NCBI GenBank assembly: GCA_022827885.1
Contig: JAJEIP010000120.1
Coordinates: 62,001 to 126,000 of the forward strand
DNA: 64,000 bases
From: Candidatus Poribacteria bacterium
GTDB taxonomy: Bacteria > Poribacteria > WGA-4E > WGA-3G
Reading direction: 5' to 3'
A program made the position numbers and the translations under genes. This document shows positions 18,370 through 23,578 of the stretch, one piece after another. Position 1 is the stretch's first letter; the number at the start of each line of letters is the position of its first letter. The notes beneath the pieces were generated by a model that worked only from the letters and a program-made list of their open reading frames with translations, had not been told where the DNA came from and searched no databases.

Positions 18370-18780
18370 TTATTGAGGCACATCTGGTTCAGCCAATTGG
18401 GTTTGTGAATCTCCGAATTTCGTGCTTTCCGCCTCGACAGCAAGTTTGGCATCAGCGGTAGCATTCTCGTCATCTTTGAGCGGTTCAATCGAAAGTTGGC
18501 ACCCAAGTGCTTTGAGAACTGCCGTGAGCGTGTCAAGATGCAGGGCTTTTCCATCTGACAGGATTTTTGAGAGTGTTTCTGGAGCCATAGCCGTCCGTTT
18601 GGCAACTTCAGCAACCCCCCCCTGCGATTCCACAACTATTGTGAGTGCGCTCACTACCGCTGCAACGTCACCATATACTGGATAATCCTCGAGGACTGCT
18701 TGAAGAAAACCGATCGCCTCCTCCCGGTCAATAGTAAATCGTTCAATTAAGTATTCGCGCCAATCCCTCATTTTTCTCAT
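18370..18780 (-). CDS. HigA-like/XRE antitoxin of a toxin-antitoxin pair
   Basis: Residues about 50-105 form a helix-turn-helix of the 'probable addiction module antidote' type (GGVAEVAKRTAMAPETLSKI, then LDTLTAVLKALG). The N-terminus (DWREYLIERFTIDREEAIGF) is also typical of that family. The C-terminal 30 residues are extra and low-complexity. The start overlaps the end of the toxin gene by 4 nt, so the pair is translationally coupled. It should neutralise the toxin and repress its own promoter. Confidence 0.85.
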   Translation of the reverse strand: MRKMRDWREYLIERFTIDREEAIGFLQAVLEDYPVYGDVAAVVSALTIVVESQGGVAEVAKRTAMAPETLSKILSDGKALHLDTLTAVLKALGCQLSIEPLKDDENATADAKLAVEAESTKFGDSQTQLAEPDVPQ

Positions 18781-19115
18781 GATTGCGTCTCCTTATACTC
18801 TCGCCAATAGGTTTTCGCGCGTGCAATATCTCGCGTCTGCGACGACTTGTCACCACCGCAAAGCAGAAGCACAATTGTGTTTTCCATTTCGCCGAAATAG
18901 ACACGATAGCCCGCCCCGACGTGGATACGGAGTTCAAAAACACCATCACCAACAGGTCGATGATCGCCAAAATTACCTTGTTCAAGATAAGTAAGTCGTG
19001 CCTCAATTCGGGTTTGTGCCCTTTTATCTCGAATTGAATCAAACCATTCAGTGAAAGGGACACGCCCACTTGGAGTTCGATAGGCTTGTAGTTCTCGTGG
19101 ATGTACGTTACGCAT
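18777..19115 (-). CDS. RelE/HigB-like toxin (Gp49-like addiction module killer)
   Basis: A 112-residue protein with the Gp49/HigB-like pattern: FTEWFDSIRDKRAQTRIEAR, then ELRIHVGAGYRVYFG and a final LLCGGDKSSQTRDIARAKTY. Members of this RelE-superfamily group are mRNA interferases acting at the ribosome. The toxin gene comes first and the antitoxin second, as in higBA. The full motif set suggests an active toxin. Confidence 0.86.
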   Translation of the reverse strand: MRNVHPRELQAYRTPSGRVPFTEWFDSIRDKRAQTRIEARLTYLEQGNFGDHRPVGDGVFELRIHVGAGYRVYFGEMENTIVLLLCGGDKSSQTRDIARAKTYWREYKETQS

Positions 19116-19208: not shown

Positions 19209-19237
19209 TTGATTTTCCGAACACATTCTGGTATAAT
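19209..19237 (+). promoter_or_regulatory. sigma-70 promoter of purD
   Basis: TTGATT (19209-19214), 17-bp spacer, TATAAT (19232-19237), 22 nt before the purD ATG. Confidence 0.75.
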
Positions 19238-19259
19238 ACAGTCAAAAAGGATATGTGAT

Positions 19260-20534
19260 ATGAAAATTCTGGTTGTAGGGCAAGGCGGACGCGAACATAC
19301 ACTCGTCTGGAAACTTGCCCAGAGTCCACTCGTTGAAAAAATCTATTGCACCCCTGGTAATCCCGGTATTGCTAAAATTGCGGAACTTATCCCGATGCCG
19401 GATCGGTTTACCGAGTTAGCGGACTGGGCAGAGTCCCAAAACATCGCGTTAACTGTTGTCGGTCCCGAAGCACCTTTGGCTGAAGGGATCGTTGACGTGT
19501 TCAGTGAACGCGGGTTGAAGGCATTTGGACCGGATAAACGCGGAGCATACTTGGAAGCGAGTAAAGATTTCGCGAAGCAGCTCATGGTAAAAAACGGAAT
19601 CCCGACAGCTGAACACCAGACGTTTACGGATGCCGAAGCAGCCATGGCTTATGTCGAAGATCGCAATGCCCCTGTTTTCGTTAAGGCGAATGGACTTGCA
19701 GCAGGCAAAGGCGTTATCCCCGGACGCACCTTCAAAGCGGCGTTGCAAGCCGTCACAACGATTCTGGTAGATAGGGCATTCGGAGAAGCGGGTGATAGTG
19801 TCGTCATCGAAGAGGAGCTCATCGGCGAAGAAGCCTCCTTCACTGTGCTTACCGATGGCACTTACTGTCTCCCTTTTGTCAGTTCCCAGGACCACAAAAT
19901 GTCCCACGATGGTGATATTGGCAAGAATACCGGTGGGATGGGTGCATACTCTCCCGCGCCTGTTATCACACCAGAATTACACGACGATGTGATGCAGCGC
20001 ATCGTTTATCCGACTGTCAAGGGCATGGCAGCTATCGGAAGACCCTTCAAAGGTGTACTATACGTTGGATTGATGATTACCGATGCGGGTCCGAAAGTGG
20101 TGGAATTCAACTGTCGTTTTGGTGATCCTGAGGCTCAAGTTCTCTTACCTCGCCTCAACAGTGATTTGGTGCCTTTGTTGATGGCGTGTATTGATGGAAC
20201 GCTTGAACAGCACGCTAACGTGCAATGGCATGATGCGGCAGCCGCATGTGTCGTTATGGCTTCGGGTGGGTATCCAGACCCCTACCAGACAGGGATCGTT
20301 ATCACAGGACTTGAAGATGCCGATGCGATTGAAGGCGTTACCGTCTTTCATGCAGGCACAAAGCGGAACGGTGAAAACATTGTCACGGATGGCGGTCGAG
20401 TGTTGGGTGTCACGGCTATGGCTGGCGGATTGCGCGATGCGATTCAACAGGCATATAAAGGTGTATCCGCCATTCATTTTGATAACGCACACGTCCGAGA
20501 TGACATCGGATATCGGGCATTGAAGCGCGGCTGA
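19260..20534 (+). CDS. purD: Phosphoribosylamine-glycine ligase (GAR synthetase)
   Basis: A 424-residue ATP-grasp enzyme. The N-terminal MKILVVGQGGREHTLVWKLA and TVVGPEAPLAEGIVD are diagnostic of PurD; FVKANGLAAGKGVIP is the ATP-binding segment, QDHKMSHDGDIGKNTGGMGA the glycine-rich loop and VVEFNCRFGDPEAQ the metal-binding core. It joins phosphoribosylamine and glycine with ATP in purine synthesis. The start was set at ATG 19260, preceded by AAAAGG, because the longer frame runs into the promoter. It stands apart from other pur genes here. Confidence 0.97.
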   Translation: MKILVVGQGGREHTLVWKLAQSPLVEKIYCTPGNPGIAKIAELIPMPDRFTELADWAESQNIALTVVGPEAPLAEGIVDVFSERGLKAFGPDKRGAYLEASKDFAKQLMVKNGIPTAEHQTFTDAEAAMAYVEDRNAPVFVKANGLAAGKGVIPGRTFKAALQAVTTILVDRAFGEAGDSVVIEEELIGEEASFTVLTDGTYCLPFVSSQDHKMSHDGDIGKNTGGMGAYSPAPVITPELHDDVMQRIVYPTVKGMAAIGRPFKGVLYVGLMITDAGPKVVEFNCRFGDPEAQVLLPRLNSDLVPLLMACIDGTLEQHANVQWHDAAAACVVMASGGYPDPYQTGIVITGLEDADAIEGVTVFHAGTKRNGENIVTDGGRVLGVTAMAGGLRDAIQQAYKGVSAIHFDNAHVRDDIGYRALKRG

Positions 20535-20634: not shown

Positions 20635-20706
20635 ATGTCTAAGAAGATGTCAACTTATATTAATAGATGGCGTTGTAATGGTGCAGAAAGATGGGAATTG
20701 AATTAA
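20635..20706 (+). CDS. Possible 23-codon leader peptide overlapping the next gene's start
   Basis: ATG 20635 follows GAGG by 4 nt; the frame ends with TAA at 20704-20706, 15 nt inside the next gene in another frame. The next gene has only a weak Shine-Dalgarno, so coupled translation through this frame would make sense. The sequence (MSKKMSTYINRWRCNGAERW) shows no known motif. Could be chance. Confidence 0.3.
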   Translation: MSKKMSTYINRWRCNGAERWELN

Positions 20707-21209
20707 CATATAAAATCGCCAAATGTTGCGCGCCACAAGAGGGTAACCCAATTACTGGCTATTTTAAAGAGGATGGCACTATTGCTGTTCATGATGCCAC
20801 ATGTAGCACGGTACAAGATTTACGAACTGAACGATTACTAAAAGTAACGTGGAATGAGATTCGAGCAACCGAGGCTCCGCCGGATTCAATTGCACTCCCC
20901 TCTGAATTTGCGGAACTTGATGAGACCGATTACTTCATACTGAAACACCATCAAGAACTGGGAATGGACTACTCTATCGTTGTCGCTGAAACTTTGAGAA
21001 TCCCACTTGAAGAGATGCACCAGCGACACCGCAAATTGAGGGATATAGGAGGTTTAAAACGGGTCGAAGGGCGGATTATCCACTATCGAAAAAATATCGT
21101 CAAGGGAAAATGGATCAAGCATCGAAATCACACCTATTATGAACTGACCCCCGAAGGCAGAACGTGGATCCAAGCTTTTGAAAATCAGCAAACTTCATCA
21201 GGAACGTAA
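20691..21209 (+). CDS. Rel-type zinc/RIS-like domain fused to a DUF2250-like winged helix
   Basis: The first 55 residues (IAKCCAPQEGNPITGYFKED, then VHDATCSTV) closely follow the Cys-Cys...His-x4-Cys zinc/RIS segment of RelA/SpoT proteins, where the pattern is CC-P--GD-I-GY...VH---C. Residues about 75-165 resemble the DUF2250 winged helix (ETDYFILKHHQELGMDY ... YYELTPEGR). There is no hydrolase, synthetase or TGS domain. In Rel proteins this segment contacts the ribosome, so a small ribosome- or nucleic-acid-binding regulator is plausible, but this is inference. The frame is closed 12 nt upstream, so ATG 20691 is the only start. Confidence 0.7.
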   Translation: MGIELTYKIAKCCAPQEGNPITGYFKEDGTIAVHDATCSTVQDLRTERLLKVTWNEIRATEAPPDSIALPSEFAELDETDYFILKHHQELGMDYSIVVAETLRIPLEEMHQRHRKLRDIGGLKRVEGRIIHYRKNIVKGKWIKHRNHTYYELTPEGRTWIQAFENQQTSSGT

Positions 21210-21296: not shown

Positions 21297-22499
21297 ATGC
21301 TAAATCATTTGCTAAACTGGGGCATTGATGCACGCCGACGTAAAAACCGAACGCGCTCTGTCATCTTATTATCGCTTATCCTACACATGATTTTCGCGAT
21401 TACCTACCTGTTTCTTCCAATCAATCAACTTCATCAAGAACAAGCGGATGCCCTCGCTGTGGACCTGATTAACGATGCTGAAGCACCCAGAAAACGGAAG
21501 CAGAAACCGAAACCCCCGCTCACGAAGAAGATGTATAATCCGAATGAGGAACTCGCCCGAGACGCCATGGAAAAGAAGATTGAAGCCGCTCGGAATCAGA
21601 TAGACGAGGTCATGAAACTCAGTCCACGCGTTGTTCTCAAAGATGTAGAGGTCAACAAAGCACCCGTGAGCGAGATAATTCCAGATGTTATGACGGACGC
21701 ACAATTACGCGATGCGGAAGCCTCGAATCTCAGCAGACTTATCGCACAACCCGGACAGACGGATGGACGCGGTCTTGTTACCGGCAGGGTCCGCGCGCGT
21801 GGCGACGGTATGGGGAGATTCCGTGGCGATGGACAAAGCGGCTCCAACGGTGGACTCCTTGGAGGCGGCGGAAAGGATGGGATCGCAGACCGACTCGGCA
21901 TCATTGATTTTCTCGATGAATTCGGGGGTCCTAAAGATGTCGTCTACTGCCTCGATGTATCCGCAAGCATGCAGGCTGCTGGGCTTAACAAACTCGAATT
22001 AGCCCTTAACTCCATCAAGGACTCCGTAATGATGCTTGGCAGTGAGGATACGTTAAATGTAGTAGCCTTTTCTTCGCAGGCGCAAACCATGCACAAAGAA
22101 ATGCTACCCGCAAACGCAGCGAATATAAAACGCACCTTAAAATATCTTGACAAATTCACATCTGCGCGCATTCAGTCCAATGTAGGGACGAACATTCTTG
22201 CCGCATTCAAAGCAGCACTCATGCTTGAATCTTCTGTGATTGTTTTAGTAACAGATGGCCTGCCGACAACAGTCGATGGGTATTCAATTGAGACAAACAC
22301 GCAGAAGATACTTGATGCTGTGCGTGAAAATAATCACAATAATGCCATTATCTATGTCGTTGCGCTTGAAATAGATTTGAAACGCTCACCTGGTGCGGAA
22401 CTCCTTGTTTCCCTCGCTGAGGAACACAATGGAGAAATAAAGGTCATTAACACTGAACGATTGTTTGAATTGACAGAGCAAGATGGATTGACCGATTAA
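21297..22499 (+). CDS. Membrane-anchored VWA-domain protein with TonB-like stalk
   Basis: The N-terminus has a single transmembrane helix (about 22-41) followed by a Lys/Pro-rich stalk (APRKRKQKPKPPL), resembling TonB. A Gly/Arg-rich linker (about 155-195) leads to a VWA domain with a complete MIDAS: DVSASM (Asp220, Ser222, Ser224), the Thr in SNVGTN and VTDG. It probably binds a protein ligand through a metal ion in the periplasm. Start chosen at ATG 21297, 8 nt after GGAGG. The following SDR gene is 25 nt away. Confidence 0.8.
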   Translation: MLNHLLNWGIDARRRKNRTRSVILLSLILHMIFAITYLFLPINQLHQEQADALAVDLINDAEAPRKRKQKPKPPLTKKMYNPNEELARDAMEKKIEAARNQIDEVMKLSPRVVLKDVEVNKAPVSEIIPDVMTDAQLRDAEASNLSRLIAQPGQTDGRGLVTGRVRARGDGMGRFRGDGQSGSNGGLLGGGGKDGIADRLGIIDFLDEFGGPKDVVYCLDVSASMQAAGLNKLELALNSIKDSVMMLGSEDTLNVVAFSSQAQTMHKEMLPANAANIKRTLKYLDKFTSARIQSNVGTNILAAFKAALMLESSVIVLVTDGLPTTVDGYSIETNTQKILDAVRENNHNNAIIYVVALEIDLKRSPGAELLVSLAEEHNGEIKVINTERLFELTEQDGLTD

Positions 22500-22524: not shown

Positions 22525-23331
22525 ATGAATCAGAAATCTGCTACAGGGATCGTTGAACAATTTCGGTTAGAAGGTAAAGTGAGTCTCGTCACTGGAGCGA
22601 GTCGCGGCATTGGGCTTGCAATGGCGGAAGGGCTTGCGGGTGCAGGTTCAGATCTCGTCGTTGTGGGCAGAGAAATAGAGACCTTGACCCCCGTCGCTGA
22701 GCGGATTGCCGATGAAACCGGTAGAAACGTCCTCCCTATTCAGGCGGATGTCAGCAATCTTACAGAAATTGACGCGCTCGTCGCACAGACTGTGGAAACT
22801 TTAGGACGGCTTGATGTCCTCGTCAACAACGCCGGCGTCAATATACGCAATCCTGCCTTGGAATTTACCGAGGCGGATTGGGACTTCGTTACGGATATTA
22901 ATCTGAAGGGTGCGTTTTTTCTCGCAAAAGCCTGCGGCACTGTCATGCAGCGACAGAAGTCGGGTAAGGTCATCAATACGTTGTCGCTCACCTCAGCGAT
23001 TGGGCTCCCCACGAGTGTCGCCTATACGGCGGCGAAAGGAGGGCTCCTCCAATTAACGAAGTTGCTCGCCGTAGAATGGGCGGAACACAACATTCAGGTC
23101 AACGGCATCGCGCCCGGCTTCATCCGAACCGAGATGACTGCCCCGGCACGCGAGGACAGCCGAAACCGATGGATTCTCAATCGCACCCCCGCAGACCGAT
23201 GGGGTGAACCTGAGGACCTTGCGGGCTTAACAATTTTCTTCGCCTCCAATGCCTCTGACTTCGTTACCGGACAAATGGTCTTCGTCGATGGTGGGTTCAT
23301 GGCGGGTAGCGATTGGAGGCGACAGTCTTAA
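22525..23331 (+). CDS. Short-chain dehydrogenase/reductase
   Basis: A 268-residue classical SDR: TGASRGIG (23-30) binds NAD(P), NNAG is intact, the catalytic Ser lies in TLSLTSAIG and Tyr/Lys in YTAAKGG. The sequence resembles gluconate 5-dehydrogenase and related sugar/polyol SDRs more than FabG, but substrate is not certain. Start at ATG 22525 with GGAG 8 nt upstream. It ends 1 nt before the ATG of the next small gene, implying co-translation. Confidence 0.88.
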   Translation: MNQKSATGIVEQFRLEGKVSLVTGASRGIGLAMAEGLAGAGSDLVVVGREIETLTPVAERIADETGRNVLPIQADVSNLTEIDALVAQTVETLGRLDVLVNNAGVNIRNPALEFTEADWDFVTDINLKGAFFLAKACGTVMQRQKSGKVINTLSLTSAIGLPTSVAYTAAKGGLLQLTKLLAVEWAEHNIQVNGIAPGFIRTEMTAPAREDSRNRWILNRTPADRWGEPEDLAGLTIFFASNASDFVTGQMVFVDGGFMAGSDWRRQS

Positions 23332-23332
23332 A

Positions 23333-23578
23333 ATGGAAAAAGATCCGGATATATTGCAAGCCGAAAGCTCCGCAGCATTGGTAGCGGTGAAGCAGATCCT
23401 GAGCGAATTTGCGCTTGAAGACGTTTCACTTTTTGACCATACGCCAGTGTTGCGGATACAGGTCTCGGAGGCACAATTTACGCGTGCCCTTCAACTGCGA
23501 GAAACTTTGGTTGATCGGATAAAACCCCTGGGATACCGATTCATCGCACTCGATTTAGACGAGTTGTCGTCGCCATAG
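23333..23578 (+). CDS. Small protein like the C-terminal end of LarE
   Basis: An 81-residue protein. VLRIQVSEAQFTRALQLRET followed by IKPLGYRFIALDLDEL matches the last segment of LarE/ATP-dependent sulfur transferases (R-E-V---F--LL--R--IV--LK-LGFRYVTLDLEG). The PP-loop ATPase and the catalytic Cys region are missing. It may be a genuine stand-alone domain or the remnant of a larE gene. It starts right after the SDR stop; no separate Shine-Dalgarno, so coupling is likely. A related coiled-coil frame follows in a different phase. Confidence 0.6.
   Translation: MEKDPDILQAESSAALVAVKQILSEFALEDVSLFDHTPVLRIQVSEAQFTRALQLRETLVDRIKPLGYRFIALDLDELSSP

Follow-up and report, generated by a model that had tools for sequence, protein, structure and literature searches.

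A RelA/SpoT-type RIS domain joined to a DUF2250 winged helix in a small conserved protein of Poribacteria

Introduction

Can the ribosome-intersubunit (RIS) domain of RelA (PMC4974054) serve outside the enzymes in which it is known? In the open-licence literature searched, this domain, also called ZFD, is treated solely as a component of long RSH enzymes; neither a stand-alone RIS domain nor one outside RSH enzymes was found described there. The question is raised by a protein of Candidatus Poribacteria in which a domain of this type precedes a winged helix. The protein is encoded in a window of 64,000 nucleotides, the whole stretch of DNA analysed here, which belongs to a genome of 5.1 Mb. 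Nothing about the stringent response of Poribacteria was found in the open-licence literature, where DUF2250, the family of the winged helix, is named in just two papers. We know of no tested function for DUF2250. The RIS-winged-helix protein joins known domains in an apparently undescribed combination in which the ribosome contacts have been lost.

Gene and domain architecture

The open reading frame begins with an ATG at 20691 and its stop codon ends at 21209. Since the open frame reaches just four codons 5' of this ATG, no N-terminal domain has been missed. The product consists of two domains and a variable linker between them (window positions):

20691-21209, + strand: RIS-winged-helix protein (P0001), 172 aa
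20703-20864, + strand: RIS/zinc-finger (CC) domain, residues 5-58, assigned from TIGR00691, a PDB profile and the predicted fold
20724-20729, + strand: codons of the putative zinc ligands C12 and C13 (C612 and C613 of E. coli RelA), invariant
20766-20777, + strand: K-E-D-G loop in place of the basic T-R-G-R loop of Rel; G29 corresponds to E. coli R629
20790-20804, + strand: codons of the putative zinc ligands H34 and C38 (E. coli H634 and C638), invariant, and of the three residues between them
20865-20918, + strand: variable interdomain linker, residues 59-76, with pLDDT below 50 at residues 63-65
20919-21185, + strand: DUF2250 winged helix, residues 77-165 (Pfam PF10007); the model resembles MarR/AspA-type wHTH proteins
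21117-21140, + strand: wing motif KHRNHTYY, residues 143-150, invariant in the family

A domain scan of the 172 residues found no HD, SYNTH, TGS or ACT domain. The protein, lacking the HD/SYNTH catalytic domain as well as TGS and ACT, does not qualify as an RSH enzyme, and the original prediction was right in stating that it has no catalytic domain. The genome of the window also carries a separate, ordinary Rel of full length. The RIS plus DUF2250 architecture is kept whole in 50 Poribacteria contigs, and conservation within the family rules out a chance or frameshifted ORF.

The N-terminal RIS domain

Residues 5-57 match positions 553-606 (of 687) of the NCBIfam model TIGR00691 (spoT_relA) with an E-value of 7.3e-9, and phmmer comparisons of the protein with M. 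smegmatis Rsh (8fr8) and E. coli RelA (5iqr) gave E-values of 2.4e-5 and 3.4e-4, respectively. When a profile of 23 N-terminal domains was compared with the PDB, RelA, Rel and SpoT chains alone were retrieved up to E=10, the best at 2.3e-10. Judged from these comparisons, the N-terminal domain is homologous to the RIS/zinc-finger domain of RelA/SpoT. Residues C12, C13, H34 and C38, which align with C612, C613, H634 and C638 of E. coli RelA, are invariant in the 43 family sequences and, by analogy with Rel, probably bind zinc.

Fold search with the whole-protein model returned wHTH-type matches alone. Because the winged helix dominates such a search, the N-terminal domain was also modelled separately with AlphaFold2, from an alignment containing family members only (mean pLDDT 81.7). 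The best nine Foldseek matches of this model in the PDB without exception belonged to RelA, Rel or SpoT proteins (probability 1.00, rmsd 1.5-2.7 Å, TM-scores normalised to the query of 0.63-0.67), and the tenth had a probability of 0.06. Foldseek weighs sequence as well as shape and the best E-value was modest (0.004), so that the match gives strong support to a predicted RIS fold but is not independent proof. The Rel zinc/RIS domain that had been proposed is thus borne out by sequence, by all four ligands and by predicted fold; a structural model unlike the Rel domain had been named as the result that would speak against it, and the nine best matches are Rel-type proteins.

The C-terminal DUF2250 winged helix

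Residues 77-160 match DUF2250 (PF10007) with an E-value of 5.9e-14 and 52.4 bits, well above the gathering score of 24.4, which confirms the DUF2250-like winged helix first read from the sequence. The whole-protein model (mean pLDDT 79.9, pTM 0.52) matches MarR-type regulators and AspA in fold search, and a winged-helix profile retrieves AspA and Lrp-family regulators first (E 2e-4 to 6e-4). One DUF2250-only homologue is also recognised by MarR, ArsR and further HTH models. The domain is basic (charge +3.5, pI 9.2), and its predicted winged-helix fold with basic net charge is that of wHTH transcription regulators. Winged helices can bind RNA or protein too.

The segment K-G-K-W-I-K-H-R-N-H-T-Y-Y is nearly unvarying. 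Since KHRNHTYY (KHLNHTYY in one case) is also present in DUF2250-only proteins of two other phyla, the wing is likely to work without RIS.

Other DUF2250 matches were observed in several contexts. A second, weaker match occurs in ORFs of about 230 aa in one Poribacteria family (G016, G017, G019, G020, G022 and G023). In one phylum, a DUF2250-only gene with the KHRNHTYY wing lies directly upstream of rplU-rpmA-obg-proBA (L103, 4502-4777; L107, 4250-4525; neighbours named by eye). In two phyla, a DUF2250-only gene forms a pair with that of an unannotated, roughly 105-aa protein (L060, 3734-4413; L105, 3720-4385; L106, 4013-4656), one copy of which was scanned and gave no Pfam or NCBIfam match.

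Ribosome contacts retained and lost

Arg629 of E. coli RelA lies near the phosphates of A885-A887, and exchanging the equivalent residue of B. subtilis Rel (R619E; R629E in E. coli) compromises both its recruitment to the ribosome and its activation (PMC7058999). The 43 family sequences were compared with the RIS of Rel in an alignment fixed on the CC pair. In place of the Rel consensus T626-R627-G628-R629 they have K26-E27-D28-G/S/N29; positions 27-28 are E-D in nearly all sequences and the Arg629 position is G, S or N in every one of them. At the position of Arg635 most members carry D, H, N or G (K or R in four), and position 640 is A, T, S, N or G, whereas Rel mostly has R or N. On average, the domain carries a net charge of -3.2 in the family and +0.9 in Rel. 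The Rel of the same Poribacteria genomes retains an ordinary RGRGVSVHR.

The RIS-winged-helix protein has therefore retained the fold and the zinc site of the domain, as predicted from model and alignment, but not the known rRNA contacts of Rel. This loss makes a Rel-like docking to the ribosome less likely, though docking in some other way is conceivable, and the absence of the key ribosome-touching charges makes a gene regulator more likely than a ribosome partner. The suggestion that the protein is ribosome-linked is weakened accordingly, the basic A-site-finger loop, with the Arg629 position, being acidic in every member.

Distribution, origin and selection

Of 85 Poribacteria genomes, 67 carry the gene: 57 of the 59 in the family of the window, all nine of another family, and one partial copy at a contig end. 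It is absent from the seven remaining families (16 genomes). One full-length member, 41% identical, comes from another, small phylum (genome G220), with E-values of 1.1e-71 against a profile that includes it and 1.8e-51 against one that does not; the other three genomes of that phylum have no such gene. All other matches in 386 widely sampled genomes (E<=1e-10) were either ORFs of 672-825 aa, the size of Rel, or DUF2250-only proteins. In a tree of RIS segments, calculated from only 55 columns, the family forms one clade against 28 Rel sequences with a support of 100/100.

One old fusion would fit both this distribution and the tree. The domain had been described as freed from RelA/SpoT, which holds for the homology; the event itself looks old and single and not like a recent fragmentation of a Poribacteria Rel. 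Such a recent fragment is rejected on the separation of the clade from all Rel, including those of Poribacteria, in the 55-column tree, and on the low dN/dS. A phage or plasmid gene was also rejected, since viral contigs contained no relative of the protein and plasmids gave Rel-type partial matches only.

The gene is under strong purifying selection, with whole-gene dN/dS values of 0.04-0.12 in ten pairs. By domain, values are mostly 0.02-0.08 for the winged helix, usually lower than those for RIS (about 0.07-0.22); one of the ten pairs showed no difference.

Neighbourhood and promoter

The gene lies between two conserved neighbours:

19209-19237, + strand: purD promoter, TTGATT-17-TATAAT, probably of a purD-RIS-wH unit, kept in most loci of the same genus
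19257-20534, + strand: purD, conserved upstream neighbour
21297-22499, + strand: VWA-domain protein, conserved downstream neighbour

The order purD, RIS-wH, VWA, SDR, LarE-tail-like ORF, polyprenyl synthase and aldolase recurs in nearly all loci that are long enough. Between purD and the RIS-wH gene, about 20 loci have a gap of 2-43 nt; the window has 156 nt, and in a few loci the distance rises to as much as 1.3 kb. The short gaps, and a + strand on which no terminator-like site was found in the window, support a purD transcription unit, in which purD and the RIS-wH gene are probably co-transcribed. In the outlier genomes the setting differs: the G220 copy overlaps the end of a gene for a class-A penicillin-binding protein, and the G012 copy comes after a propeller protein. 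The link to purD is therefore Poribacteria-specific and weak evidence of function.

The purD promoter region (19209-19256, + strand) has an unusually conserved spacer (TTGATTTTCCGAACA...TGRTAYAATAC) in the majority of loci of this genus. Allowing up to three mismatches, the motif occurs just once in the genome, and the sister genus lacks it upstream of purD; no common binding site, and no operator, is claimed. Rfam gave no RNA element nearby (12-32 kb of the window).

Two further features were observed around the gene. A HigB/HigA-type toxin-antitoxin pair (18370-19115, - strand; TIGR02683 toxin with E=5e-37, HI1420-like antitoxin) shifts its place: it is upstream of purD in many relatives, between VWA and SDR in L007 and L008, and absent in others. 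A conserved ORF of about 80 aa (23330-23578, + strand), retained in nearly all related loci, resembles the C-terminal tail of LarE (TIGR00268 positions 193-252, E=4e-4; PDB LarE E=0.035; no Pfam match) without the catalytic part.

A two-module regulator and the alternatives

The RIS-winged-helix protein is best explained as a regulator that binds nucleic acid, most likely as a transcription factor, with RIS as a partner- or signal-binding zinc module; we hold this reading with middling confidence. The basic winged helix would use its recognition helix and the exceptionally conserved wing to bind nucleic acid, most likely DNA. The RIS, a small module, presumably with structural zinc, that shares ancestry with the RIS of Rel but lacks its known A-site-finger contacts, may serve for partner binding, dimerisation or signal input. 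Made from the purD transcription unit, the protein would be a housekeeping regulator of Poribacteria. DNA binding and a transcriptional role are suggested by the basic charge, by the likeness to AspA, Lrp and MarR, and by the selection on the winged helix, usually stronger than that on RIS. On the other side, no operator emerged from the promoter search, the conservation of Y7, F25, W54 and R48 could partly serve an unrecognised ligand of RIS, and the DUF2250-only genes beside rplU-rpmA-obg keep a ribosome or RNA role possible. A more specific proposal, that such a transcription factor senses the translation or starvation state through its Rel-type RIS, by binding Rel, a ribosome site or another partner, and relays it directly to DNA as a branch of starvation signalling independent of (p)ppGpp, is quite unlikely.

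A ribosome-associated factor, whose RIS would dock, like that of Rel, between the A-site finger and uS19, with rRNA or a partner held by the winged helix, and which would compete with or assist Rel, is rather unlikely. Its case lies in the genuine RIS fold and ligands of a domain that in RelA is intersubunit (PMC4974054), in the very strong conservation, and in the DUF2250-only gene that precedes rplU-rpmA-obg in one phylum. However, the TRGRG loop has become KEDG in an acidic domain, R629 is missing throughout and R635 and R640 are mostly lost, the R629E/R619E exchange impairs binding of Rel to the ribosome (PMC7058999), and TGS and ACT, the other anchors of Rel, are absent. The invariant CC-H-C site joined to a wHTH could also point to a zinc- or redox-sensing transcription factor, switched by metal release or gain, and the winged helix has the zinc regulators ZitR and AdcR among its fold matches. 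These matches, however, reflect the general wHTH alone, no metal-transport or redox genes are found among the conserved neighbours, and the CC-H-C site of Rel is structural; a sensor of this kind is quite unlikely. Modulation of Rel in trans, by RIS-RIS or RIS-SYNTH binding that would tune (p)ppGpp synthesis, or with the winged helix bringing the state of Rel to DNA, is likewise unlikely. RIS Cys and Asp residues have been proposed for RelA dimerisation or SYNTH contacts (PMC3153485, PMC6719525) and the carrier genomes examined have a full-length Rel with an ordinary RIS, but Rel is near-universal, so that coexistence means little, D637, one of the proposed contacts, is not conserved in the family, and RelA with these ZFD mutations is reported to complement fully (PMC6719525).

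Significance and comparison with known systems

A conserved protein of this kind separates what the RIS domain is from the role of RIS in Rel, and constitutes a natural test of which RIS functions are separable: fold, zinc, dimerisation and rRNA docking. It may act as a housekeeping regulator of an uncultured phylum and, if the sensing of translation state were true, a new wire from starvation to transcription.

With respect to the C-terminal domain, DUF2250 is described as conserved in archaea, and the match spans nearly the whole model above the curated cut-off. The DUF2250-only bacterial proteins have the wing motif in common with the RIS-winged-helix protein but lack RIS. AspA, the centromere-binding protein of pNOB8, which also has a winged-helix fold, is the best sequence-profile match and among the best fold matches; it is a partition protein, however, and no par genes were seen among the neighbours of the RIS-winged-helix gene. 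Lrp/MarR-type wHTH regulators share the same fold as well. All of these wHTH proteins are about 20% identical to the RIS-winged-helix protein and carry no RIS. The closest counterpart of the N-terminal domain is the RIS/ZFD/CC domain of long RSH (5kps, 5iqr, 6htq, 8fr8, 7qpr), with which it shares the predicted fold, the CC-x20-H-x3-C ligands in the same register and 31-35% identity over 51-54 columns. Unlike that domain, it sits outside any RSH enzyme, has replaced the basic TRGRG loop together with Arg635 and Arg640, is acidic, and belongs to a clade separate from the Rel sampled.
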